DNA of 64,000 nt, from positions 682,001 to 746,000 of the forward strand of contig NZ_JALIQS010000001.1 in assembly GCF_024704725.1 (NCBI RefSeq), given 5' to 3'. The position numbers and the translations under genes are program-made. The notes below the pieces were generated by a model. The model was not told the origin of the DNA. It searched no databases and was given only the letters and a program-made list of their open reading frames with translations. Each line of letters opens with the position of its first letter. Within the stretch, counting starts at the first letter, position 1. Source of the DNA: Shinella sp. CPCC 101442. Its GTDB lineage: Bacteria > Pseudomonadota > Alphaproteobacteria > Rhizobiales > Rhizobiaceae. Positions 32,303 through 45,374 of the stretch are shown in pieces.

Positions 32303-33412
32303 ATGGCGAGTGTACGTTCATTTGAGGCAGGGGATGTGGATGCGGTCGCGGATCTCTTCCAGCGACTGCTGCGCAAGAGCGGTCAGCCGGCAAACGACGA
32401 CCTGAAGGCCTACATCCACACCCTCTTCCTCGACGGCGCCAACCGCGACGCCGGCCTTTTCTCGCGCGTGCATGTGCGCACCGACGGCACCGTCTCCGGT
32501 TTCCTCGGCGTGTTGCCCGTCGAGATGCAGTTCGAAGGGCGGCGCCTGCTGGCCGCCAATTGCGGCACCTTTGCCTGCGACGACCGCGACAGCGACCCCT
32601 TTGCCGGCGCGCGCCTCCTGCGCGACGTGCTCTCGGGCCCGCAGGACCTGTCCTTTAGCGAGACCTCGAACGACATATCCACCGACATGTGGCGGACGAT
32701 GCGCGCGGGCGTGCTCGCCTCCTACAGCCTGGAATGGCTGCGTATTCTCAAACCCGCCGCCTTCGCGCTGGAAGCGGTAGCCGGGAAAGTTTCGGCCGCG
32801 CGCCTCTTGTCGCCCGTCGCGAAACTTGGCGATGCCATCCTGTGCCGGCGCGGCGGCAAGCAGACCTGGTCGCACTATGCGCCGCTTGCCGGCAAGGCCG
32901 ATGCCTTCGCGGCGACACCCGCCGACAACGCCGAGTTCGCCGCCCTCGGCGTTGAGCTTGTCGCCCAGTTTCCCCTGCGTCCCGCCTGGGACCAGCCCAC
33001 GCTCGAGGCCATGCTGAAACACGCCGAGCGCAAGGCGCTGCATGGCGAGCGCATCCAGCACATCGTGCGTGCGCGATCCGGCAAGCCTGTCGGCCTCTAT
33101 CTCTATTACGGCAATCCCGGCGGCATCGGCCGCGCCGTGCAGGTGATGGCGGCACCGGGACAGGAAGCGATCGTCATCGACTGCCTTATCCGCAATGCCC
33201 ATGAACGCGGCCTCGTCGCCGTCAGGGGCCGCACGCAGCCGCAGCTGTTGCAGGCGATGATCGGCAAGAAATGCGCTTTCCTGCACACGTCCTCGACCGT
33301 CGTGCACGCCCGCGACCCCGCCATTCTCGCCGCGCTGACGCACGGCCAGCCCTTCCTCAATGGCCTTGCCGGCGAGGGCTGGACGCGCCTCATCGGCGAC
33401 CGCTTCGGATAG
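32303..33412 (+). CDS. GNAT-fold N-acetyltransferase-like protein
   Basis: A 369-residue protein. The first about 150 residues resemble a GNAT domain (SVRSFEAGDVDAVADLFQRL at the start, RTDGTVSGFLGVLPVEMQF in the core strands), and the C-terminal half (KPVGLYLYYGNPGGIGRAV, DCLIRNAHERGLVAVRGR) may be a second GNAT-like unit. No signal peptide or membrane segment. It is the first gene of the AsnB-ACP-ligase-NadE cluster and ends 8 bp before the asparagine synthase start. It could acylate an amine made or used by the pathway. Substrate unknown and the GNAT call is by pattern only. Confidence 0.65.
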   Translation: MASVRSFEAGDVDAVADLFQRLLRKSGQPANDDLKAYIHTLFLDGANRDAGLFSRVHVRTDGTVSGFLGVLPVEMQFEGRRLLAANCGTFACDDRDSDPFAGARLLRDVLSGPQDLSFSETSNDISTDMWRTMRAGVLASYSLEWLRILKPAAFALEAVAGKVSAARLLSPVAKLGDAILCRRGGKQTWSHYAPLAGKADAFAATPADNAEFAALGVELVAQFPLRPAWDQPTLEAMLKHAERKALHGERIQHIVRARSGKPVGLYLYYGNPGGIGRAVQVMAAPGQEAIVIDCLIRNAHERGLVAVRGRTQPQLLQAMIGKKCAFLHTSSTVVHARDPAILAALTHGQPFLNGLAGEGWTRLIGDRFG

Positions 33413-33419
33413 GTCGGCC

Positions 33420-35351
33420 ATGTGCGGGATCGCCGGATATCACGGGGGGAATTTTTCACCCGAGCGGGCCGCGGACGCTCTCGCCCGCATGGTCGCGGCG
33501 CTCCGCCATCGCGGGCCGGATGCCGAAGGCGTTCTTGTCAGAGGCGATACCGGTCTGGCCCACACCCGCCTTTCCATCGTCGGCCTTGCCGACGGCGCCC
33601 AGCCGATGGAAACGGAAGACGCATCGCTCGCCGTCTCCTTCAACGGCGAGATCTTCAACTATGTGGAACTGCGCGCGGACCTTGCAGCCCGCGGCCACCG
33701 CTTCCGCACGACCTCCGACACCGAAGTGCTGCTGAAGGCCTATGAGGCGCGGGGCATCGACTGCCTGCAGGATTTCAACGGCGATTTCGCCTTTGCCCTC
33801 TACGATGCGCGCAACCGCACGCTGCTTTTGGCGCGCGATCGCATGGGCGTTCGCCCCCTCTTCTATACCGAGCACGAGGGCGCGCTGTTTTTCGCCTCGG
33901 AAATCAAGGCGCTGCTGGCGCTCCCCGGCATGACGGCACAGATCGATCCGCTCGCGCTCGACCAGATCTTCACGCTCTGGTGCCCCATCCCACCCCGCAC
34001 CGCCTACCGGGGCATCCATGAACTTCCACCCGGCCACATGATGCTCGTGCGAGACGGCGAGCGGACGATCCGACCATGGTGGCAGCTCTCCTTCCCCGAT
34101 CGTGCCGACGTGCCGTCGGCTGGCCAAACGGGCGAGCAGGCCGAGGAACTGCGGGCACTGCTCTCGGACGCCACCCGCATCCGCCTGCGCGCCGACGTGC
34201 CGGTCGGCGCCTATCTCTCCGGCGGCCTCGATTCTTCGCTGATCGCAGCGCTGGCCGCCCGCACGGTTACCCATGGCCTGCGCACCTTCTCCCTGACCTT
34301 CCGCAGCGAGGAGCACGACGAAAGCGGCTGGCAGCGGCAGATGGCCGCGACGCTCGACGCCGAGACCGACAGTGTGGAATGCACGACGGCGGCGATTGCG
34401 GCCGGCATGCCCGAGGTGATGCGCCATATCGAATGCCCGATCCTGCGCACGGCGCCTGTGCCCCTTCATCTTCTCGCGGCGCGCGTGCGCGAGCGCGGCA
34501 TGAAGGTCGTTCTGACCGGCGAGGGCGCGGACGAAATCTTTGCCGGCTACGATATCTTCCGCGAGGCGCGTGTCCGGCGCTTCTGCGGCCGCCAGCCCCT
34601 GTCCGCCCGCCGTCCCCGTCTCTTCCAGCGGCTCTATCCGTACCTGCCCGGCCTGCACCAGCAGACGCCGGAATATCTCGCGCGCTTCTTTGCCTTCGGC
34701 GCCGAGACGCTCGACGATCCGCTTTATTCCCACCGGCCCCGCTTCCGCTCGACGGCCGCGACCAAGCTGTTCTTCTCGGCCGAGCTGAAGGACACGCTCG
34801 GCGACTATGATGCGGCCGCCGACCTCGCCGCCCAGCTGCCGGCGGATTTCGGCCGCTGGCATCCGCTGCACCAGGCGCAGTATCTCGAAACCGCCTTTCT
34901 GCTGCCCGGCTACATCCTTTCCAGCCAGGGGGACAGGGTGATGATGGCGAATGCCGTGGAGGGACGTTTTCCCTTCCTCGATCATCGCGTCGTCGCCTTC
35001 GCCGCAAACCTCCCGCCCGAGACGAAGCTGCAGGGCCTGCGCGAAAAACACATTCTCAAGGAAGCCGCTCGCGGCCTCGTGCCCGAGGCGATCATCGATC
35101 GCCCGAAGCAGCCGTACCGCGCGCCGGACAGCGAAAGTTTCGCCGCGCCGGGCACGCCGGCCTATCTCGACGACGTTCTTTCGCCGGCGCGGCTTGCCGA
35201 AAACGGCCTCTTCAATGGCCCGGCCGTCGGAAAACTCAAGGAGAAAGTCGTCAAGGGACAGGCTAGCGGCTTTCGCGACAACGCCGCCTTCATCGGCATT
35301 CTTTCGACACAGCTTCTCGGCGCAGCAGCGCCATCGACACACCGCGCATAA
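33420..35351 (+). CDS. Asparagine synthase (glutamine-hydrolysing)-like amidotransferase
   Basis: A 643-residue AsnB-family protein. Met-Cys-Gly at the start supplies the Cys2 nucleophile of the glutaminase domain, with FNGEIFNYVELRADL and the class II amidotransferase core. The synthetase domain has the pyrophosphatase loop YLSGGLDSSLIAAL near residue 265 and LTGEGADEIFAGY near 365. Length fits AsnB-type proteins found in biosynthetic clusters. Start ATG lies 8 bp after the GNAT stop with GGATAGG upstream. With a carrier protein and adenylating ligase downstream, it probably makes an amide on a dedicated substrate rather than asparagine for growth; that is inference. Confidence 0.9.
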   Translation: MCGIAGYHGGNFSPERAADALARMVAALRHRGPDAEGVLVRGDTGLAHTRLSIVGLADGAQPMETEDASLAVSFNGEIFNYVELRADLAARGHRFRTTSDTEVLLKAYEARGIDCLQDFNGDFAFALYDARNRTLLLARDRMGVRPLFYTEHEGALFFASEIKALLALPGMTAQIDPLALDQIFTLWCPIPPRTAYRGIHELPPGHMMLVRDGERTIRPWWQLSFPDRADVPSAGQTGEQAEELRALLSDATRIRLRADVPVGAYLSGGLDSSLIAALAARTVTHGLRTFSLTFRSEEHDESGWQRQMAATLDAETDSVECTTAAIAAGMPEVMRHIECPILRTAPVPLHLLAARVRERGMKVVLTGEGADEIFAGYDIFREARVRRFCGRQPLSARRPRLFQRLYPYLPGLHQQTPEYLARFFAFGAETLDDPLYSHRPRFRSTAATKLFFSAELKDTLGDYDAAADLAAQLPADFGRWHPLHQAQYLETAFLLPGYILSSQGDRVMMANAVEGRFPFLDHRVVAFAANLPPETKLQGLREKHILKEAARGLVPEAIIDRPKQPYRAPDSESFAAPGTPAYLDDVLSPARLAENGLFNGPAVGKLKEKVVKGQASGFRDNAAFIGILSTQLLGAAAPSTHRA

Positions 35352-35369
35352 AGGATCGGGATCCCAGAC

Positions 35370-35624
35370 ATGTCCGACGAAACCAGAACCGCCATCCGCG
35401 CCTTCATCGTGGAGAACTTCCTGTTCGGCGACGACAGCCAGCCGCTTGCCGCCGACCTCTCGCTGATCGACAACGACCTCATCGATTCCACCGGCATTCT
35501 CGAACTGGTCGGCTTTCTGGAGGAGCGTTTCGCCATCACCATCACGGATGCGGATATCGTGCCGGCCAATCTGGATACGATCGACCGCATTGCCGGCTTC
35601 ATCGCCCGCAAACAGGCCGCCTGA
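35370..35624 (+). CDS. Acyl carrier protein
   Basis: An 84-residue acidic four-helix carrier protein. The phosphopantetheine attachment serine is Ser40 in NDLIDSTGILELV, and the flanking helices (IRAFIVENFLFG, VGFLEERFAITIT) are typical. It lies 18 bp after AsnB and 12 bp before the AMP-forming ligase, so it is a dedicated carrier for this cluster rather than the fatty-acid ACP. It would hold the acyl or amino-acyl group activated by the ligase. A phosphopantetheinyl transferase must come from elsewhere in the genome. Confidence 0.9.
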   Translation: MSDETRTAIRAFIVENFLFGDDSQPLAADLSLIDNDLIDSTGILELVGFLEERFAITITDADIVPANLDTIDRIAGFIARKQAA

Positions 35625-35636
35625 CGGCAGGCGGCG

Positions 35637-37157
35637 ATGCGGATCGAGCACTATCTCCAGGCCAGCGCAGAGCGTGACGGCGCCAGGACGGCGATCGTCT
35701 CCGGCGAGACGCGGCTGAGCTACGACCGCCTGCTCGATCTGTCCCAACGCCTTGCGACGACGCTCCACGACCACGGCGCCGGTCGCGGCGAGCGTGTGCT
35801 CATTCTCCTCGACAACGGCTGGCGCACCGCCGTTGCCGTGCTGGCGACGTGGACGGCGGGTGCCGCGATCTGCCCTGTCAACCCCTCGACGAAAACCGAA
35901 CGTCTCGCCGCCATCGCACGGGATTGCGATCCCGCCGTCGTCATCGTCGAAAACCGTCTGCAACGCCTCGTCGAGGAAAGCCCGGAACTTGCGGCACTCC
36001 CCCGCCTTGTCGTGGGCGAGGCCGGCTGCTTCGATGCCGCGCTTTCGGCCACTCCCTTCGCCCCGGCCGAGGATTTTCCCGACACCGATCTCGCCGCGCT
36101 CATCTACACCTCCGGCTCGACGGGTGCACCCAAGGGTGTGATGCACAGCCACGCCACGCTCGACGCCGCTGCCCGGTCGATCACCCGCTATCTCGAAAAC
36201 ACTGCTGCCGATATCCTGCTGGTCGTGCTGCCGCTGTCCTTCGGCTACGGGCTCAACCAGCTGGTGACGGCAATGCTGTGCGGCGCGACGCTCGTCATCG
36301 AAAAATCCTTCGCCTTCCCGCAGGCCGTCTTCGAGACGATCCGCAACGAACAGGTGACGGGGTTTCCGCTCGTGCCGGCCATGGCCGCGATGATGATGCA
36401 GGCGCGCGAACTCGACGCGTCGCTCTTTGCAAGCCTGCGCTACATCACCAGCGCAGCCGCGCCACTGCCGCTCGCCCATCTCGACTGGCTGCGCACCTTC
36501 CTGCCCCATGTCCGGATCTACTGCATGTACGGCCAGACCGAATGCACCCGTGCTACCTGGCTTGCGCCGGAAGCAATCGACGCGAAGCGAGGCTCGGTCG
36601 GCATCGCCATACCGGGCACCACCGCCACGGTGGTGGACGAGGCGGGCGAAACGGTTTTACCCGACACCGTCGGCGAGCTTGTCATCAGCGGGCCGCATGT
36701 GATGCTCGGCTATTGGCGCAACGCGGCGGCCACCAGCCGTGCGCTACGACCTGAGCCGCGCACCGGAGCTCTTCGCCTCCACACCGGCGATCTCTTCACG
36801 GCCGACGCCGACGGCTATCTGACCTTCGTTTCCCGCATGGACGACATCATCAAATCGCGCGGCGAGAAGGTCGCGCCGCAGGCGGTGGAAGAGGTGCTGT
36901 GCCGCATGCCCGATATTGCCGAGGCGCTGGTCTTCGGCGTGCCGCATGACGTGCTCGGGGAGGCTGTCAAAGCCGTCGTCGTCGCCTCGAATGCCGATCT
37001 CACGGAACGCGAAATCCAGCGCTTCTGCGCCCGTCACCTTGAAGACCACATGGTCCCGAAAATCATCGAATTTCGCGACAGCCTGCCCCGAACCGACAGC
37101 GGCAAGGCCAGCCGCCGCCTTGCCGCCTTGCCCGCCAACCCGACAGGATCGAAGTGA
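35637..37157 (+). CDS. AMP-forming acyl/amino acid ligase
   Basis: A 506-residue class I adenylate-forming enzyme. Core motifs are present: A3 IYTSGSTGAPKGVMHSH (near 157), A5 YCMYGQTECT (near 297), A7 RLHTGDLFTADADGYL, A8 SRMDDIIKSRGEKVAP and the catalytic A10 lysine in PRTDSGKASRR. It should activate a carboxylic acid as AMP-ester and load it onto the carrier protein of the preceding gene. No condensation or reductase domain is attached. The stop overlaps the NadE-like start by 4 bp. Substrate cannot be read reliably. Confidence 0.9.
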   Translation: MRIEHYLQASAERDGARTAIVSGETRLSYDRLLDLSQRLATTLHDHGAGRGERVLILLDNGWRTAVAVLATWTAGAAICPVNPSTKTERLAAIARDCDPAVVIVENRLQRLVEESPELAALPRLVVGEAGCFDAALSATPFAPAEDFPDTDLAALIYTSGSTGAPKGVMHSHATLDAAARSITRYLENTAADILLVVLPLSFGYGLNQLVTAMLCGATLVIEKSFAFPQAVFETIRNEQVTGFPLVPAMAAMMMQARELDASLFASLRYITSAAAPLPLAHLDWLRTFLPHVRIYCMYGQTECTRATWLAPEAIDAKRGSVGIAIPGTTATVVDEAGETVLPDTVGELVISGPHVMLGYWRNAAATSRALRPEPRTGALRLHTGDLFTADADGYLTFVSRMDDIIKSRGEKVAPQAVEEVLCRMPDIAEALVFGVPHDVLGEAVKAVVVASNADLTEREIQRFCARHLEDHMVPKIIEFRDSLPRTDSGKASRRLAALPANPTGSK

Positions 37158-38125
37158 TGACCCACACGCCCGCCTTTGCCCCGCTCGTGCTCGATCCCGC
37201 CGCCGAGGCGGAGCGCATCGCGCAATGGATGCGCGAACGGCTGCGGCTCGACCTGCGCAAGCGCGGCCTGGTACTCGGGTTGTCGGGCGGCATCGATTCC
37301 AGCCTCTCGGCGGCGCTGGCCGTCACGGCGGTCGGCGCGAAGAACGTCTTTGCCCTCTACATGCCGGAAAACGATTCCGATCCCGAAAGCCTGCGGCTCG
37401 GGCGCAGCGTCGCACAAACCTTCGGCATCGACAGCACGCTGGAGGATATCGGCCCGGCGCTCGCCGCCATGGGCTGCTATGAACGTCGCGACGCCGCCAT
37501 TCGCGAGGCTGTGCCGGACTATGGAGATGGCTGGGCGTCCAAGATCGTCTTCGATAGCACGCTGACAACGGGCGGCTACAACATCTCCTCGCTCGTCGTG
37601 CGTTCGCCCGATGGCGAGATGCGCAAGGTGCGCCTGCCGGCCAGCGCCTATCTCGGTATCGTCGCAGCCACGAACATGAAGCAGCGCAGCCGCAAGCAGC
37701 TCGAATATTACCATGCCGACCGGCTGAATTTCGCCGTGATCGGCACGCCCAACCGGCTGGAATACGACCAGGGCTTCTTCGTAAAGAATGGCGACGGCGC
37801 GGCCGATATCAAGCCCATCGCCCATCTCTACAAATCGCAGGTCTACCAGCTTGCGGCCCATCTCGGCGTACCCGCCGAAATCCTCTCCCGCCCGCCGACG
37901 ACCGACACCTATTCCCTGCCGCAGACACAGGAGGAATTCTATTTCGCCCTGCCCTATGACAAGATGGACATCTGCCTCTACGGGTTGAACCACGCATTGC
38001 CGGTCGAGGCTGTGGCGGCAGCGACCGGCCTTCGTTCAAGCCAGGTCGAACTGGTCTGGACGGACATAGCCGCAAAACGCAAGGTCGCCCGCTATCTTCA
38101 CAGCCCGCCGCTCGTCATGGTGTGA
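37154..38125 (+). CDS. NAD synthase (ammonia-dependent)-like amide ligase
   Basis: A 323-residue NadE-family protein without the glutaminase (nitrilase) domain. The PP-loop LGLSGGIDSSLSAAL is near residue 45, and IGTPNRLEYDQGFFVKNGDG and IKPIAHLYKSQVYQLA match the NadE core. Genuine NadE amidates deamido-NAD+. Placement behind AsnB, a carrier protein and a ligase, with a 4-bp overlap, suggests either a recruited amide synthetase or a local NAD supply. The extra central segment (SPDGEMRKVRLPASAYLG) is not one I recognise from housekeeping NadE. I favour a recruited amidating role but this is open. Confidence 0.85.
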   Translation: MMTHTPAFAPLVLDPAAEAERIAQWMRERLRLDLRKRGLVLGLSGGIDSSLSAALAVTAVGAKNVFALYMPENDSDPESLRLGRSVAQTFGIDSTLEDIGPALAAMGCYERRDAAIREAVPDYGDGWASKIVFDSTLTTGGYNISSLVVRSPDGEMRKVRLPASAYLGIVAATNMKQRSRKQLEYYHADRLNFAVIGTPNRLEYDQGFFVKNGDGAADIKPIAHLYKSQVYQLAAHLGVPAEILSRPPTTDTYSLPQTQEEFYFALPYDKMDICLYGLNHALPVEAVAAATGLRSSQVELVWTDIAAKRKVARYLHSPPLVMV

Positions 38126-38181
38126 TCGCGCCGCGGGATAGGCCCGCTTGAATTCCCGGCTGCCCCGTCTATCCTGTTCCC

Positions 38182-38943
38182 ATGCGTGCGAACCTCACCT
38201 TCGAACAACTCCAGCGCTGGAGCAGCGGCATCGCCTCTGCGGTGAGCGCCACGTTGCCCGAGGAGATTTCGGCCCATTTCACGGCCGGCGCGCGCGATCT
38301 CATCGCCTCGGATCAGGTCTATATCGGCCTCTATCTGCGCGACAGCGCCTCGATCACCATCTACGAGCGCGATCCCGATCACTGGAACCGCAACTACGAC
38401 ACCCGAAAATACCAGCAGGACCCGTTCTTCCGCCTCTTCGCCGGCTCGCGGCAGGATTTTCTGCTGCCGCTCTCCGCTCTGGACAAGGGCGATTTCCACA
38501 CCAGCGCCTATTACCGTGACTTCTACGAACCGTCGGGCAGTTTCGACGAGATCACCGGCGTCTTCAATTTCGACCGCAATGCCGCCGGCTTCGTCACCTA
38601 CCTGCGCCGGCGCGGTGCCCGCCCCTTCGGGGCCGAGGACGTGGCGACCGCCGAAGCCACCGCCGATGCGACCCGTATGGTGCTCGAACGGCTGTGGCGG
38701 CAATGGCGACCGCCTGGCGAAAACCAGCTGTCGCTTGGTGACCTCAGCGCACGCGAACGCCAGATCGCCGTCCTCCTCATCGACGGCGGCTGCGCAAAAA
38801 CCATTTCGCGCGATCTCTCGATCTCGCCCGGCACCGTGCGCAACCACATCAAGACGGTCTACCGCAAGCTTGGCATCCACTCGCAGGTCGAGCTGATGGC
38901 CGCCGCGCGGGACGGCGGCCTTGCCCTTCCCTCACTGCCCTGA
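38182..38943 (+). CDS. LuxR-family transcriptional regulator
   Basis: A 253-residue regulator with an N-terminal sensor-like region (about 1-180) and a C-terminal GerE/LuxR helix-turn-helix: LSARERQIAVLLIDGGCAKT, then SPGTVRNHIKTVYRKLGI. The sensor region does not show the clear Trp/Tyr/Asp set of acyl-homoserine-lactone receptors, though WNRNYDTRKYQQDPFF is loosely similar. It lies 56 bp after the NadE-like gene on the same strand and is probably the cluster's regulator. Its 3' end overlaps the converging binding-protein gene by 12 bp. Confidence 0.88.
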   Translation: MRANLTFEQLQRWSSGIASAVSATLPEEISAHFTAGARDLIASDQVYIGLYLRDSASITIYERDPDHWNRNYDTRKYQQDPFFRLFAGSRQDFLLPLSALDKGDFHTSAYYRDFYEPSGSFDEITGVFNFDRNAAGFVTYLRRRGARPFGAEDVATAEATADATRMVLERLWRQWRPPGENQLSLGDLSARERQIAVLLIDGGCAKTISRDLSISPGTVRNHIKTVYRKLGIHSQVELMAAARDGGLALPSLP

Positions 38944-40026
38944 AACGACGCGCGTCCACATGCGGTTCTGCAGGCGGAGAAGCTTCGCGTCGTTCGTTTC
39001 CACCACGAAGAGTTTTGCCTTCACGTCGTCAGGCGGGAAGACACCGGGGTCCTTCGCCACCGCCTGGTCCATCAGCGGCAGCGATTCCGGAATGGGGTTG
39101 GCGTAGGAAACGTAGCTGGAATTGGCCGCCGCGATCTCGGGCCGCATGTTGAAGTCGATCCAGGCCAGTGCGTTTTCCGGATGCGGCGCGTCCTTCGGCA
39201 CCACCATCGTGTCGAAGTTGATCAGCGTGCCCTCCTTCGGGATGGCATAGGCGATCTCCAGCTTCTTCTCGCTTTCGGCCGCACGCGCCTTCGCCTGCAA
39301 AATATCGCCCGACCAGCCGAGCACGACGCAGATATCGCCATTGGCGAGGTCGTTGATATAGCGCGAGGAATGGAAGTAGCGGATGTGCGGACGCACCTTC
39401 AGCAGCAATTCTTCCGCCTTGGCGATATCATCCGGGCTGGTCGAATGTGGATCGATGCCGAGATAATTCATCGCCATCGGGATGATTTCTGCGGGCGCAT
39501 CGAGCATGGCGACGCCGCAATCGGCGAATTTTTCCACGATGGCAGGGTCGAAGACCATGGCGAAACTGTCGACAGGGGCGTCCCCCATGCGCTCCTTCAC
39601 CGCCGCAACATTGTAGCCGATGCCGTCGGTGACGGACATATAGGGCACGGCAAAGACATTGCCCGGATCGGCGCCCGCGATCAGCGACAGCGCCTGCGGA
39701 TCGAGCTTGCCGATATTTGCAAGCTTCGCCTTGTCGAGCGGCTGGAAGGCACCGGCCTTCACCTGATTTTTCAGGAACGGATAGGCCGAGGGATAGACGA
39801 CGTCATAGCCCGCGCCGCCGGTCAGCATCTTGGTTTCCAGCACCTCGTTGCCGTCATAGACGTCGTAGACGACGCGGATGCCGGTTTCCTTCTCGAACTT
39901 TTCGGCCGTATCCGGCGCGATATAGTCCGACCAGTTGTAGACGTTGACGACCTTTTCCTCCTGCGCTTCGGCGCCGCCGATGGCAGCGAGCAAAGCGAGG
40001 ACCGAGACGAGCGTTCTTCTGCGCAT
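38932..40026 (-). CDS. Putrescine/spermidine-type periplasmic binding protein (PotF/PotD-like)
   Basis: A 364-residue polyamine-type binding protein. Signal peptide MRRRTLVSVLALLAAIGGAE with cleavage AEA|QE, then VVNVYNWSDYIAPDTAEKFE, the classic PotF opening. Later GYDVVYPSAYPFLKNQVKAG and ICVVLGWSGDILQA are also family features. GGGAGAACACC precedes the ATG. No permease or ATPase genes accompany it, so it must use an importer encoded elsewhere or act as a sensor. It follows the agmatine deiminase by 11 bp, suggesting agmatine or putrescine as ligand. Confidence 0.9.
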   Translation of the reverse strand: MRRRTLVSVLALLAAIGGAEAQEEKVVNVYNWSDYIAPDTAEKFEKETGIRVVYDVYDGNEVLETKMLTGGAGYDVVYPSAYPFLKNQVKAGAFQPLDKAKLANIGKLDPQALSLIAGADPGNVFAVPYMSVTDGIGYNVAAVKERMGDAPVDSFAMVFDPAIVEKFADCGVAMLDAPAEIIPMAMNYLGIDPHSTSPDDIAKAEELLLKVRPHIRYFHSSRYINDLANGDICVVLGWSGDILQAKARAAESEKKLEIAYAIPKEGTLINFDTMVVPKDAPHPENALAWIDFNMRPEIAAANSSYVSYANPIPESLPLMDQAVAKDPGVFPPDDVKAKLFVVETNDAKLLRLQNRMWTRVVSGQ

Positions 40027-40037
40027 GGTGTTCTCCC

Positions 40038-41150
40038 TCAGGCTTTCGTCTGGCCGGCATAGACCGGCAGAGTGATGCAGGCGACATTGCCGCCGCCGAG
40101 CAGGATTTCGCGGGAATTCTCGATGCCGGTGATACGGTGTTCCGGGAAGAGTTCGGCGAGCTTGGCTTTCGCGGCGAGATCCAGCTTCTCGTCGTCGAAC
40201 TGCGGCACGACGACGACGGAATTGCCGGGGTAGTAGTTGATATAAGTGGCCGCGATGCGGTTGCCGGCCGGACGTGCCCAGGTGCTGTCGACCTGATCGA
40301 CGCCCGCCGCCTCCTCCGTCGTCATCTCGATTGGACGGGGGTGGAGGATACGGTGCACTTCGAGGCTGCGGCCACGCGCATCGCGGGCTGAACGCAGCAC
40401 GTCCTCCACCTCGCGCACGATCTCGTACTGCGGATCGTCGCGCTCCTCCGTCCAACTCATCGCCACCACGCCCGGCCGTACGAAGCAGCAGACATCGTCG
40501 ACATGACCGTCCGTCTCGTCGAAACAGAAGCCGCGCGGCAGCCAGATGACATGTTCCAGCCCGAGATAGTCCGAAAGCTGCTTTTCGACCTCCGCCTTGC
40601 CGAGATGGCCGTTGCGGTTGCGGTTGAGCAAGCACTGTTCCGTGGTGATCAGCGTGCCCTGACCGTCGCATTGCAGTCCGCCGCCCTCGGCGATCAGCGT
40701 CGAGCGGTAGCGGTCCAGGTTTTCGGTTTCGAGCACCTTGCGGGCGGCGAGATCGTCGAGGTTCCACGGCGCATAGAGGCCGCCGTCATTGCCGCCATAG
40801 GCATTGAAGGTCCAGTCGACGCCGCGCACCGCGCCGTGATCGTTGATGACGAAGTTCGGGCCGCTGTCGCGCAGCCAGGAATCGTCCGTCGACATTTCGA
40901 CGAGGCGAACGTTTTCCGGCAGCATGGCGCGGGCATTCAGCCATTGGCGGGAGGAGACGGCGATCGTCACCGGCTCGCTCTCGGCGATCGCCGCCGCGAC
41001 CCGCGCGAAAAGTTTTTGCGCGGGCTTGGCGCCGAGACGCCAGGTATCCGGCCGCTCCGGCCAGATCAGCCAGCAGCCGGCCTTCGGCTCGAATTCTCCC
41101 GGTGCGCGAAAACCGTCGGCCTTCGGCGTGCTTGCAAGCGTGCGTGCCAT
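40038..41150 (-). CDS. aguA: Agmatine deiminase
   Basis: A 370-residue member of the porphyromonas-type peptidylarginine deiminase family. It hydrolyses agmatine to N-carbamoylputrescine and ammonia in the cytoplasm. The early acidic pair is in STDDSWLRDSGPNFVI, the catalytic His region is ETDGHVDDVCCF, and the nucleophilic Cys is in LLGGGNVACITLPVY near the C-terminus. Size is right for AguA. It starts 80 bp from the biotin carboxylase gene, with a palindrome in between, so it probably has its own promoter. AguB, the next enzyme, is not in the window. Confidence 0.9.
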   Translation of the reverse strand: MARTLASTPKADGFRAPGEFEPKAGCWLIWPERPDTWRLGAKPAQKLFARVAAAIAESEPVTIAVSSRQWLNARAMLPENVRLVEMSTDDSWLRDSGPNFVINDHGAVRGVDWTFNAYGGNDGGLYAPWNLDDLAARKVLETENLDRYRSTLIAEGGGLQCDGQGTLITTEQCLLNRNRNGHLGKAEVEKQLSDYLGLEHVIWLPRGFCFDETDGHVDDVCCFVRPGVVAMSWTEERDDPQYEIVREVEDVLRSARDARGRSLEVHRILHPRPIEMTTEEAAGVDQVDSTWARPAGNRIAATYINYYPGNSVVVVPQFDDEKLDLAAKAKLAELFPEHRITGIENSREILLGGGNVACITLPVYAGQTKA

Positions 41151-41210
41151 GTGTCCCCCAGATGAAAAGTCTGGGTGGATTAAGGCAAGCGCGGCCCTTT
41201 CGGGTCAATG

Positions 41211-41222
41211 TCCCATTTGGGA
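41211..41222. promoter_or_regulatory. TCCCA-TT-TGGGA palindrome upstream of agmatine deiminase
   Basis: A perfect 5-bp-arm palindrome lies about 60 bp upstream of the aguA start, in the 79-bp gap after the biotin carboxylase stop. A second small hairpin, CCCAGA-7-TCTGGG at 41157-41175, lies in the presumed leader. The palindrome is a candidate operator; the regulator is unknown. Confidence 0.3.
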
Positions 41223-41229
41223 TGGGTGA

Positions 41230-42954
41230 TCAGCCCTCGAAGAGCATCAGCGTGTCGCCGGCCTGAAGATAATCGCCTTCCTTGACCCGCAGGCGCAGGC
41301 GGCCGGCCTTGGGGGCGAGTACCTGCGTTTCCATCTTCATGGCCTCCATCACCGCCACGAGTTCGCCCTCGGCAACCTCGGCGCCATCGGCGATCTTGAA
41401 GGCCTGCAGCGTGCCGGAAACAGGGGCGGCGATGCCGTCCTCGGCGGGTTTGCCGCTCCCGACGGACCCCGTGCCCTGCCCGGCCGCTCCCAGCCCCGCG
41501 AGCAGTATGCTCGGCAGTGCCAGCGAAACACGCTTGCCATCGATCTCGAGATGGGTGCGGATCAGAGTCGGATCGGTAGCCGGCTCTGGACGTGCCATCG
41601 CATCCGGCATGGCGGCGAAGTCGGTTTCGATCCAGCGGGTGTGCACCTTGAAGCCATCGGTTCCGATGAAGTCCTGGGTATCGATAGCGGCGCGGTGGAA
41701 CGGCAGGACCGTCGCCACGCCCTCGATGCGGAATTCCTTCAGCGCCCGCCGGGCGCGGCGCAGCGCTTCCTCGCGCGTCGCACCGGTGACGATCAGCTTG
41801 GCCATCAGCGAGTCGAAGACGCCCGGAATGCTGGAACCGCTGACGACGCCGCTATCGACGCGTACGCCCGGTCCGGACGGCGGATCGAAAACGGTGATCA
41901 TGCCCGGCGTCGGCAGGAAGCCGCGGCCGGGGTCCTCCGCATTGATGCGGAATTCGATGGAATGGCCGCGCGGGGCGGGCGTCTCGAGCAGGGTCAGCCG
42001 CTGGCCTTCGGCGACGCGGAACTGCTCGATGACGAGGTCGATGCCGGTCGTCTCTTCCGTGACGGGATGCTCCACCTGCAGGCGTGTGTTCACCTCGAGG
42101 AAAGAGATCGTGCCGTCCACGCCGAGCAGGAATTCCACCGTGCCTGCGCCGGAATAACCGGCGGCGGCGCAGATCGCCTTGGCGGCAGCGTGGATCGTCT
42201 CACGCTGTTCCAGCGAGAGGAAGGGTGCGGGCGCCTCCTCGATGAGCTTCTGGTTGCGGCGCTGCGCCGAGCAGTCACGGGTGCCGAGAACCAGAACATT
42301 GCCATGTTTGTCGGCGATGACCTGCGCCTCGATATGGCGCGGGCGGTCCAGGAAGCGTTCGAGGAAACATTCGCCACGGCCGAAGGCGACCGTCGCCTCG
42401 CGCACGGCGGATTCGTAGAGGTCGGCGACCTCCTCCATCTTCCAGGCGACCTTGATGCCGCGCCCGCCGCCGCCATGCGCCGCCTTGATGGCGACCGGCA
42501 GACCATGCTGTTCCGCGAAGGCGATCACTTCGGCGGCCGAAGACACCGGGCCATCGCTGCCGGCGACGAGCGGCGCGCCGACGCTCAGCGCGATGCGCCG
42601 GGCCTCGACCTTGTCACCGAGCGCCTCGATCACCTTCGGCTCGGGCCCGATCCAGGTCAGGCCGGCGTCCTGCACGGCCTTGGCGAACCGGGCGTTCTCC
42701 GACAGGAAGCCGTAGCCCGGATGCACCGCATCGGCGCCGGCGCGTTTTGCGATGGCGATCAGCTTTTCGATATCGAGATAGGTTTCCGCCGGGCGCACGC
42801 CGCCAAGGCCATAGGCCTCGTCGGCAAGCCGAACAAACAGCGCGTCCGCATCCGGGTCGGCATAGACGGCGACCGACTGGAGGCCGTGGTCACGGCAGGC
42901 GCGCAGGATACGCACGGCGATCTCGCCACGATTGGCAATCAGCACTTTCTTCAT
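41230..42954 (-). CDS. Biotin carboxylase fused to biotin carboxyl carrier domain
   Basis: A 574-residue protein. Residues 1-450 are a biotin carboxylase ([19 protein letters not shown] at the start, ATP-grasp glycine loop in [32 protein letters not shown]). The last about 70 residues are a BCCP domain with the biotinylated lysine in [12 protein letters not shown]. No classical carboxyltransferase is nearby. The adjacent PxpB-PxpC fusion is homologous to the carboxyltransferase part of urea carboxylase, so the two may act together, as may happen in pxp loci elsewhere. The start ATG lies 10 bp after the PxpBC stop. Confidence 0.9.
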
Positions 42955-42964
42955 GGCATTGCTC

Positions 42965-44557
42965 CTAGCGGGTCGCGGCGATATCGGCGAAAGGGCCGAC
43001 CGGGCGGAAACGGATTTTGGCGTTGATGGGAACCTGGCCGGCAAGATCCAGGTGGTATTCGGCGACCGCACCGATGACGGGATAGCCGCCGGTCAACGGA
43101 TGGTCGGCGAGGAAGAGCACCGGCTGGCCGCTGTGCGGCACCTGGATGGCGCCCGTCGCCGTGCCCTCGCTTGGCAGCTCCGCGCTGTCCTTGCGCTCCA
43201 GCGGCACATCGCCGGCAAGGCGGATGCCGACGCGGCTCGATTGCGGCGTGACCTGCCAGAGCTGGCTCGTCAGCGTTTCCAGGCCCTTTTGCGTGAACCA
43301 GTCCGTGCGCGGGCCAAGCACCACGTCGAGTGTCACCACGTCACCGGCAGCGGGCAGGTCGAAGGCGGGAACTTCGTCGCAGGCAACGCTCGCCAGTCCG
43401 GCCGTTTCGCTCTTCAGGGCCAGCACGGTCCCGGCGATCACCAGCTCCGGACCGACGACGGCGAGCGTATCGGTCGCCGCACTGCCGAGAACCGGCACTA
43501 CATCGAAACCGCCGCGCACGGCGAGATAGGCGCGCATGCCTTTTTTCGGATGGCCGATCGTGACGACGTCGCCCGGTTCCAGCGCGATCGGGCAATAGGG
43601 CTCGAAGTCCTGCACGCGACCCGCGCTGTCGCGCACCGTCACCGGACAGGTCGCGCCGGCAAGGCCGATGACGGCGCGGACACTGCTTTCGAAGGAGAAG
43701 CCGCCGAGCGTGAGTTCGAGGCCCGGCGTGTTCGCCGGATTGCCGACGATGCGGTTGACGGCGTTGAAGGTGCCGCGGTCGAGCGCACCGGAGGCGGAGA
43801 CACCCTGTCCCGTCTGGCCGAACCGTCCGAGGTCCTGGAAGACAGCGGGCATCGGGGCAGCGAGCACCGTGAACTGCGGGGCATCAGCTGCAAGGATACG
43901 CTCCACCCGGGGAGCAGGCGCAGGAATGCTGACGGTCCTGCCCGCCTTCTCCATATCGAAGAAGCGCACGCGATAACCGGGCTGGAACAGCGCGCCGGGG
44001 TCGCGGTCGATATCCCACATCTTGATCGGCGTCGTGCCGATAATCTGCCAGCCGCCGGGGCTCGCTTGCGGATAGACCCCGCTGAAGGCGCCGGCGAGCG
44101 CGACGGAGCCGGCCGGGATGCGGGTGCGCGGGCTTTTGCGGCGCGGCACGTGAAGTGCCGTATCGCCGCCGACGAGGTAGCCGAAACCCGGGGCGAAACC
44201 GCAGAAGGCGACGGTGAATTCGCTTTCCGTGTGGCGGCGGACGGCCTCCTCGACGGAAAGGCCGGTCAATTCGGCGACATCGCCGAGATCCTCGCCGTCA
44301 TAGCGCACGGGGATTTCGACGAGATGCTCCGACGGCGCGATCTTCGCCGAGAGGTCGCGGGTGCCGATGCGGCCCGCAAGGTCGGAAGCCGAAACCTTGT
44401 CCGGGCGGAAGCTGATCATCAGCGTGCGCGCGGCCGGCACCATCTCGGCGATGCCGTCGACGGGATCGGCCTGCAGCGAGGCGAAGAGCGCGAGCGTCTC
44501 GTCGAGATCGGCGAGTTCGACGAGGATGGTGGTCAGGCTGACGGGAAGAAAACGCAT
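42965..44557 (-). CDS. 5-oxoprolinase subunits B and C fused (KipI-KipA)
   Basis: A 530-residue fusion. Residues about 1-215 are the KipI/PxpB domain ([38 protein letters not shown]) and about 230-530 the KipA/PxpC domain ([50 protein letters not shown]). In most bacteria these are separate genes. With PxpA encoded two genes upstream it should form the ATP-dependent 5-oxoprolinase that opens pyroglutamate to glutamate. ATG 44557 has GTGAGG upstream and lies 8 bp after the YcsI-family stop region. Confidence 0.9.
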
Positions 44558-44564
44558 CGAAGCC

Positions 44565-45374
44565 TCACGCGTGATAGGCGGAATCGGGGACATCGGTGAT
44601 GAACATGTGGCCCGGCGCATGGGTGATGGCGAAGGGCACGCCCGATGCCATCACGGCCGCCTGCGGAGTGACGCCGCAGGCCCAGAACACCGGCACTTCG
44701 CCCGGCTCGATGCGAACCGCATCGCCGAAATCCGGCTTAGCGAGATCGCCGATGCCGATTTCACCGGGCGCGCCGACATGAACGGGCGCACCATGCACGG
44801 CCGGGAAGCGGCCGGAAATGGTGGCGGCATCGGCAACGCGCGAGGCCGGGATCGGGCGCATGGAGACGACCATGTTGCCCTTGAGCCTGCCCGCCGGGCG
44901 GCAGGCCCTGTTCGTCAGGTACATCGGCACGTTGGTCCTGTCCGTCATGTGGCGGATCTCGATGCCCGCCTCCACCATCGGCGTCTCGAAGGTGAAGGAG
45001 CAGCCGATCAGGAAGGCGACGAGGTCGTCGCGCTCCGCCCAGGCGGCGGTGGCGTCAGGCGTTTCCTCGACGAGTTTTCCATCCCGCCAGATGCGGTACA
45101 GCGGCAGGTCGGTGCGAAGGTCGGCACCGGGCGCCAGAAGCGTCGTCGGCGAGCCCGGATCGGACACGTCGAGCACCGGGCAAGGCTTTGGGTTGCGTTG
45201 CGCATAGAGCAGGAAATCGAAGGCCCAGTCGCGCGGCAGCACGATCATGTTGGCCTGGGTGAAGCCGGGCGCGATGCCCGAGGTGGGCGCGACAAGCCCA
45301 TCCCGGTAAGTGGACCGCGCCTTGCGGGCGGCCGTGGCATCGGCATGGTCCAGATAGGCGGTCGGGATCGTCAT
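44565..45374 (-). CDS. YcsI/DUF1445-family putative hydro-lyase
   Basis: A 269-residue DUF1445 protein, the family to which Bacillus YcsI and D-glutamate cyclase-like proteins belong. Features are [19 protein letters not shown] near residue 35, [19 protein letters not shown] near 122 and [13 protein letters not shown] at the end, all typical. Its position between PxpA and PxpBC matches the ycsF-ycsG-ycsI-kipI-kipA order of Bacillus. It may interconvert 5-oxoproline and glutamate-type compounds, including the D forms. Function inferred from family and context. Confidence 0.88.

Follow-up and report, generated by a model that had tools for sequence, protein, structure and literature searches.

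A conserved carrier-protein, ligase and amide-synthase gene module in Shinella and its relatives: a candidate system for exopolysaccharide decoration

In the Wbp/Vim pathway of P. gingivalis and T. forsythia, which the mechanism proposed below resembles in outline, a sugar is deacetylated, VimA puts an amino acid on the amine and WbpS forms a uronamide; in P. gingivalis, a deacetylase, the GNAT-like VimA and the AsnB-type WbpS serve the linking sugar (excerpts of PMC7468200, which name neither a ligase/ACP nor a NadE-like partner). In S. meliloti, the ligase SMb20650 is reported to acylate the acyl carrier protein (ACP) SMb20651, which reportedly becomes holo and acylated, and SMb20650 did not substitute for FadD with oleate (excerpts of PMC7232532). 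A third related set is formed by the exopolysaccharide (EPS) genes associated with exosortase A (XrtA/PEP-CTERM), comprising the TIGR03098 ligase, the TIGR03108 amidotransferase and the TIGR03006 deacetylase. Our literature search found no paper on the gene combination described below and no described product of the locus, but the S. meliloti ACP and ligase have received study.

The locus studied here lies in a 64-kb stretch of DNA from Shinella sp. CPCC 101442, analysed as a whole and referred to as the window. Six intact ORFs occupy positions 32303-38943 of one strand (+), and re-deriving coordinates, gaps and overlap from the ORFs confirmed the close spacing that had originally been reported. 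They encode a tandem-GNAT N-acyltransferase (P0001, 32303..33412, 369 aa), an AsnB-type glutamine-dependent amidotransferase (P0002, 33420..35351, 643 aa), a dedicated ACP (P0003, 35370..35624, 84 aa), an AMP-forming ligase (P0004, 35637..37157, 506 aa), a putative NadE-like ammonia-dependent amide synthase of the PRK00876 subfamily (P0005, 37157..38125, 322 aa) and a LuxR-type (GerE HTH) regulator (38182..38943). Gaps measure 7 bp between GNAT and AsnB, 18 bp between AsnB and ACP, 12 bp between ACP and ligase and 56 bp between NadE and LuxR, while the ligase and NadE-like genes overlap by 1 base (TGATG), or by 4 bases if the latter starts at the GTG at 37154. A sigma-70 promoter scan found 0 candidates, against a mean of 1.0 in shuffled sequences. 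Pfam detected no condensation or ketosynthase domain in the six proteins, which speaks against an NRPS/PKS product cluster, and P0001-P0005 had no PADLOC match, so that an anti-phage system was discarded.

The combination of a carrier protein, an acid-activating ligase, two types of amidating enzyme and an acyltransferase, as first proposed, is supported by the individual proteins; the meanings of the motifs cited for AsnB, ACP, ligase and NadE-like protein are those we take them to have from general knowledge. The AsnB-type protein belongs to TIGR01536 (504 bits, cut-off 267) and carries an N-terminal Cys (MCGIAGY; Cys2) and the PP-loop SGGLDSS, but falls below the cut-off of the WbpS-like XrtA amidotransferase model TIGR03108 (426 versus 816.9 bits). 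Its best PDB sequence match was the 'hydroxyamidotransferase' 7ylz (207 bits), followed by asparagine synthetase B (1ct9, 188 bits), and it was the only one of six TIGR01536 matches in its own genome to exceed the cut-off. The ligase (PF00501, PF13193) shows the complete adenylation motifs anticipated for it (YTSGSTGAPKG, YGQTE, TGD and a C-terminal SGK). Its best NCBIfam model was the exosortase-A-associated TIGR03098, at 406 bits and hence under the cut-off of 592. Alignment to LgrA revealed SFG in place of the A-domain SFD, whose Asp presumably binds the amino group of an amino acid, and loading of a standard alpha-amino acid is disfavoured on this ground. The call of a carrier protein held as regards Ser40, within a D39-S40-T-G motif invariant in 8/8 and 14/14 aligned sequences, and as regards relatives annotated as ACPs, whereas P0003 itself gave no Pfam match at 1e-3 and only sub-threshold NCBIfam ACP matches, the best being an ornithine-lipid ACP model (61.9 bits, cut-off 130).

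The ligase and ACP are orthologous to SMb20650 and SMb20651 of S. meliloti pSymB, the former being identified with the single P0004 homologue found on pSymB of strain 2011, since this adjoins a nadE-like gene. Strain RCAM1750 likewise has AsnB, ACP, ligase and NadE adjacent, as in the window, but its GNAT gene lies apart, at a distance of ~10.5 kb, where its neighbours are a methyltransferase, Wzx and GNAT2, whereas the GNAT gene of the window heads the operon.

The NadE-like protein matched NF002048/PRK00876 at 505.6 bits (cut-off 313) and contains the PP-loop motif GLSGGIDSS. Its predicted structure (pLDDT 87.2) was closest in Foldseek to 2e18, 1xng and 3fiu (E from 3e-18, for 2e18, to 4e-16), which suggests that it shares fold and PP-loop with NH3-dependent NAD synthases, from which it nonetheless differs in sequence (18-26% identity among the 50 matches listed) and by an insertion of ~50 residues that separates the two halves aligned to NadE; inserted strands occupy residues ~127-159. 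It was not the only NAD synthase of its genome, as a separate glutamine-dependent enzyme was identified elsewhere (NF010588, 841.7 bits); this settles the check originally proposed for a second NAD synthase. The best reading is that a NadE-family enzyme, a reused relative of the NAD-making one, was recruited as an amide-forming partner. The layout of NaAD (carboxylate-ring-ribose-pyrophosphate-nucleoside) resembles that of an NDP-uronic acid, and by this analogy the enzyme might act on a uronic acid linked to a nucleotide.

No Pfam or NCBIfam model matched the GNAT protein on its own. PF13527 was matched by 13 of the 34 members of its alignment, P0001 not among them (limit E 1, best 8e-5), and its AlphaFold2 model was confident (pLDDT 89.9, pTM 0.88), with N-myristoyltransferases and bacterial GNAT-family proteins as top Foldseek matches (E 4e-13 to 8e-12, TM 0.43-0.57 and 8-11% identity among the 50 matches listed). 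The GNAT assignment is therefore upheld by relatives and by the predicted fold, although not by a family match of the protein's own sequence. No GNAT2 relative other than P0001 itself was found in its genome.

Conservation was assessed in 113 loci selected by the presence of a NadE relative, duplicates being kept (L024/L132, both S. meliloti, and apparently L030/L055 and L032/L053). Unlike an ordinary NadE gene, the NadE-like gene was accompanied in 113/113 loci by one or more of the ACP, ligase and AsnB genes, co-oriented with it and no more than 7 kb away. The order AsnB-ACP-ligase-NadE was counted in 95/113, and on separate inspection also holds for L044 and L124, which the count classes otherwise; eight loci displayed NadE-AsnB-ligase-ACP, three had no AsnB next to ACP-ligase-NadE, and a GNAT gene lay within range in 85/113. 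Pairwise identities of the core proteins co-vary (r 0.81-0.90, uncorrected for shared species history), and the gene set is found again in other families, other orders and on plasmids. This recurrence is far beyond chance: the first five genes are a real and widespread module, common to many soil bacteria, and the expected co-conservation of tandem-GNAT, AsnB, ACP, ligase and NadE-like genes is thus borne out.

The LuxR-type gene is a local neighbour outside this module, as judged from its distribution, since a tblastn match longer than 120 residues occurred in 1/102 relative loci (L045 of Shinella curvata, 93%). Its product matched only GerE HTH and, weakly, HTH_23, with no match to an autoinducer-binding family of the kind that marks a quorum-sensing regulator (Pfam, 1e-3). 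Control of the system by LuxR, part of the original prediction, is consequently not sustained. The protein gave the sole PADLOC match of the locus (29.5 bits), confined to its HTH part.

The surroundings of the module in relatives, which are repeatedly EPS loci, those of the Sinorhizobium type among them, point to polysaccharide assembly. Wzz/Wzy/Wzx/GT/deacetylase profiles matched in 44/113 loci and in 0/32 control stretches from module-bearing genomes, a comparison that is partly circular because the profiles were built from neighbours of the same loci; no EPS profile was within reach in the other 69. The controls (12 + 20 stretches of 19.9 kb each) were hand-picked at round-number positions rather than at random, the case loci spanned 3.7 to 30.9 kb (median 20.9), and the profile-search databases differed in size (21,664 for the cases and first 12 controls versus 50,000 for controls). 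When the 107 loci possessing all four core genes were grouped at 65% NadE identity, most matches fell in one large related group, with 7/17 groups matched. In Azospirillum (L133), Pfam and NCBIfam resolved on one strand the series Bac_transf-Wzy-GT2-GT4-GT4-deacetylase-ACP-ligase-AsnB-NadE-GNAT, the second GT4 by custom profile only and the GNAT at 24 bits, just under its Pfam cut-off of 25. Exosortase-A-type EPS genes adjoin the module in one relative locus, L137, where the gene immediately before AsnB encodes a deacetylase of TIGR03006 (390.6 bits against a cut-off of 276), GTs follow, and TIGR03007-, TIGR03018-, TIGR03016- and TIGR03015-like genes each score under their own cut-offs; an exosortase was not detected there. 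Elsewhere the neighbours comprise a DegT (sugar-type) aminotransferase, sugar transferase, epimerase/dehydratase, Wza-type export and methyltransferase genes (L034), Wzz, GT2 and a sugar transferase (L141), an EPS transport protein and two GTs immediately upstream on the opposite strand (L023, Shinella zoogloeoides), or unrelated metabolic or signalling genes (L136 and L122).

In the window itself no EPS profile matched anywhere in the 64 kb, the eight flanking ORFs scanned belong to transport, LacI, deiminase and carboxylase families, and no wbp genes were seen at the locus. Its genome has no close methyltransferase (best 36%), PCP relatives of 22-28% only and no exosortase (0 PF09721 matches at E 1e-6, compared with 3/27 module genomes that have one). 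The locus thus differs from an exosortase/PEP-CTERM system, as it also does in having no XrtA-named NadE family among the matches of P0005.

We consider it probable, at roughly 60%, that the five genes form a portable exopolysaccharide-decoration module placing an acyl-amide group onto a polysaccharide amine, a reading supported by gene conservation, predicted GNAT and NadE folds, the EPS location of relatives and the published acylation of the orthologous ACP. The AMP-ligase would activate a carboxylic acid, whose identity we can only infer, and load it onto the dedicated ACP. The AsnB-type enzyme, using glutamine, and the NadE-type enzyme, using ammonia, would each amidate a carboxylate, either of the acyl held on the carrier or of a uronic acid in the sugar, or of both, in a pairing of enzyme and target that is likewise conjectural. 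The tandem-GNAT would then move the acyl from the ACP to a presumed amino-sugar amine, which either a polysaccharide deacetylase would expose or an aminotransferase would introduce; a HemK/PrmC-like methyltransferase probably completes the group in many relatives, and the decorated unit would be flipped and polymerised by Wzx/Wzy. With no EPS genes beside it, the window copy would have to act in trans. More tentatively, and with somewhat less than even odds, a NadE-family enzyme may have left NAD metabolism for polysaccharide assembly, where together with AsnB and the ACP-fed GNAT it would equip the exopolysaccharide with a doubly amidated acyl or, alternatively, with both a uronamide and an acyl amide.

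The locus had originally been read as an acid-activating, amide-forming biosynthetic set; the gene set stands, while its stand-alone small-molecule product is recast here as a polysaccharide decoration. It seems unlikely that the locus makes, under LuxR control, a diffusible amide metabolite that might serve as a signal: the window copy has no adjoining polysaccharide genes, AsnB is nearest in the PDB to the 'hydroxyamidotransferase', and ligase, ACP and AsnB together resemble small natural-product gene sets, but the near absence of LuxR from related loci counts against it, and decoration of a polysaccharide is the more likely because many relatives lie inside EPS loci. Less probable still is N-acylation of a lipid or protein, in which the ligase-fed ACP and the N-myristoyltransferase-like tandem-GNAT would yield an acyl-amide lipid or lipidated protein. 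The Foldseek matches of the GNAT and the ornithine-lipid ACP model agree with this, yet the tandem-GNAT fold is shared by a broad class of proteins (TM ~0.5, 8-11% identity), and the two amidating enzymes and the EPS neighbours would be left unaccounted for; moreover, the failure of SMb20650 to replace FadD for oleate (excerpts of PMC7232532) argues against long-chain acyl-CoA synthesis, while leaving room for acyl-ACP formation. It is very improbable that P0005 simply adds another NAD synthase of the usual kind and that P0002 is an ordinary asparagine synthetase, both beside an ACP and ligase of no shared pathway. Both exceed the cut-offs of models so named (NF002048, NAD(+) synthase; TIGR01536, asparagine synthase), and the genome offers no other above-cut-off AsnB, but it does encode a full glutamine-dependent NAD synthase, and neither the four- to five-gene conservation with correlated divergence nor the extra residues in the NadE fold fits ordinary enzymes.

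If the exopolysaccharide reading is true, it would give a function class to genes now labelled asparagine synthase, acyl-CoA ligase and NAD synthase, and these labels would be corrected in many Rhizobiales. It would also predict that the EPS of S. meliloti, a species amenable to laboratory work, carries an amide-bearing substituent not yet described, and may be relevant to the ligase and amidotransferase genes that are still unexplained in exosortase-type EPS loci.

Between positions 32303 and 38943 the ORF reading of the window confirmed the original prediction of six closely spaced genes, all intact and in the same orientation, separated in order by 7, 18, 12, -1 (or -4) and 56 bp. The AsnB and NadE-like proteins scored above the curated NCBIfam cut-offs of TIGR01536 (504 bits) and NF002048 (505.6 bits) respectively, the AMP-ligase carries Pfam domains PF00501 and PF13193, and at 1e-3 neither the ACP nor the product of the first gene (P0001) matched any Pfam family. 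The window lies at G000:C1:682001-746000 in a genome of 6.1 Mb, and the nearest named relative among the matches listed is Shinella curvata (91% NadE identity). A scan of eight flanking ORFs placed parts of a sugar-type ABC transporter and a LacI regulator upstream and, downstream on the minus strand (38932-44620), a solute-binding protein, a PAD_porph deiminase (agmatine deiminase-like), a biotin carboxylase and a carboxyltransferase.

Matches to NF002048 above its cut-off occurred in 20 of 297 genomes sampled from the order and in 15 of 398 sampled from the phylum; the two samples overlap, and the window genome belongs to each. Conservation of the module was assessed in 113 loci (102, plus four plasmid loci and seven further ones, with a few duplicates), which were selected for a NadE relative, are thus uninformative on genomes devoid of one, and represent mostly close relatives because, in one of the searches, only the best 80 of at least 576 stretches encoding such relatives were kept. 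The enzymes proved to be conserved together, with the order AsnB-ACP-ligase-NadE in 95/113 of these loci and also in L044 and L124, mis-sorted owing to long open frames. Eight loci had the order NadE-AsnB-ligase-ACP and the remainder were varied or truncated, including three (L041, L122, L123) with ACP-ligase-NadE and no adjacent AsnB. A GNAT profile match lay within range in 85/113. Pairwise identities correlated (r 0.81-0.90, shared species history not being controlled for) among NadE, AsnB and ligase over 107 loci and between NadE and GNAT over 80. The LuxR-type protein (P0006), originally considered a component of the system, was matched over more than 120 residues in only one of 102 loci, which does not support this role. 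In a Nitratireductor rhodophyticola plasmid (L025:3304-6679) the five-gene module adjoins Mu-type transposase, TniB and TniQ genes, suggesting that it is movable as a cassette. Rhizobiales-like copies on contigs titled Bacillus subtilis (L116, identical in layout and coordinates to Pseudochrobactrum L117) and Methylococcaceae (L057) are probably contamination or mis-binning.

The NadE-like protein is not the only NAD synthase of the genome, since a separate gene matches NF010588 (841.7 bits), including its nitrilase-type N-terminal part. Comparison with solved NadE proteins showed that the family retains the PP-loop and the GTxxxxE...GFFxKxGDG block, and that profile positions 101 and 170, flanking the equivalent of 2e18 residues 89-105, delimit an insertion of about 50 residues, within which the model (pLDDT 87.2) predicts three strands. 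Foldseek ranked NadE structures at the top; one of them, 3fiu, is titled NMN synthetase, and therefore a substrate shift inside this fold is known. These observations suggest that the substrate may be other than NaAD.

P0001 searched alone gave no family match. Nevertheless, we assign it as a predicted tandem-GNAT acyltransferase, with no specificity class implied, because 13 of 34 members of its alignment reached PF13527 (lowest E 8e-5 in a search limited to E 1), its AlphaFold2 model was confident (pLDDT 89.9, pTM 0.88) and its Foldseek neighbours were N-myristoyltransferases and bacterial GNAT proteins (among 50 listed, E 4e-13 to 8e-12, TM 0.43-0.57, identity 8-11%). The term tandem reflects a full-length match to proteins that we take to contain two GNAT domains.

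Recurrent neighbours of the module in related loci were a HemK/PrmC-like methyltransferase, Wzz, Wzy, Wzx, glycosyltransferases, a polysaccharide deacetylase and a second GNAT. At least one of the Wzz, Wzy, Wzx, GT4, GT2 and deacetylase profiles was found in 44/113 loci and at least two in 36/113, compared with 0/32 control stretches of 19.9 kb, a partly circular figure given that the profiles were made from neighbours of the same loci; after grouping at 65% NadE identity, 7 of 17 groups had a match, most matches falling in one large group. Because of this circularity and dominance, independent annotation constitutes the stronger evidence. In Azospirillum (L133), a single co-oriented run comprises a sugar transferase, Wzy, three glycosyltransferases and a deacetylase, followed by ACP-ligase-AsnB-NadE-GNAT (the GNAT score, 24.0, lies just under the Pfam cut-off of 25). 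L137 has an XrtA-type deacetylase above cut-off, chain-length, kinase, outer-membrane and ATPase-like genes below theirs, the module and then glycosyltransferases, with no exosortase detected in that genome. L034 contains a DegT aminotransferase, a sugar transferase, an epimerase/dehydratase, Wza-type export and a methyltransferase; L141 contains Wzz, GT2 and a sugar transferase; in L138 and L139 a GT4 adjoins AsnB; and in Shinella zoogloeoides (L023) the upstream genes, on the opposite strand, encode an EPS transport protein and two glycosyltransferases. Counter-examples are L136, where NADH-dehydrogenase- and molybdopterin-oxidoreductase-type genes follow the module, and L122, which is bordered by genes for a histidine kinase, PPK2, a hydrolase and PGI. 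A conserved protein of about 717 aa, recurrent in EPS loci, adjoins GT2 at L161:4864-7023 and L061:3858-6011 (no Pfam match for the L061 copy), and minCDE lies close to the module on plasmids of S. meliloti (L132:18509-20432) and Rhizobium sp. ACO-34A (L135:6083-7926).

We favour a role of the module in decorating a polysaccharide amine with an amide-bearing acyl group; release of a diffusible product seems unlikely to us. An acid would be activated and loaded on the ACP, as supported in an orthologue: PMC7232532 describes SMb20650 as a pSymB ligase cotranscribed with the ACP SMb20651, reports, citing 2009 work, that it yielded acylated SMb20651 in E. coli, and states that SMb20650 does not replace FadD. 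The single P0004 (ligase) homologue found on S. meliloti 2011 pSymB adjoins a nadE-like gene, and on this basis, rather than by locus tag, we strongly favour its identity with SMb20650; smb20650 is listed in PMC10315480 among genes down-regulated under predation. In two NadE-first loci (L034:13459-16251, L035:8084-9130), an extra AMP-ligase and a thioesterase ORF, or a thioesterase adjoining NadE, would be compatible with the acyl group on the ACP being edited or released. The enzyme families point to two amidations, and the tandem GNAT may move the acyl group to an amino sugar, consistent with its fold, with the presence of deacetylase and aminotransferase genes nearby and with the precedent of VimA (PMC7468200 describes the linking sugar of the Wbp/Vim pathway and points out that exosortase loci contain relatives of VimA/AsnB). 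Methylation could optionally follow, and gene context suggests export by Wzx/Wzy.

In the window, the module stands apart from EPS genes. None of the EPS profiles matched the 64-kb window, and searches of the host genome recovered no GNAT2 relative except P0001 itself, no close match to the module-type methyltransferase and only distant PCP relatives (22-28%). Given this detachment, the window copy must either act in trans or have another role in this Shinella-like genome.
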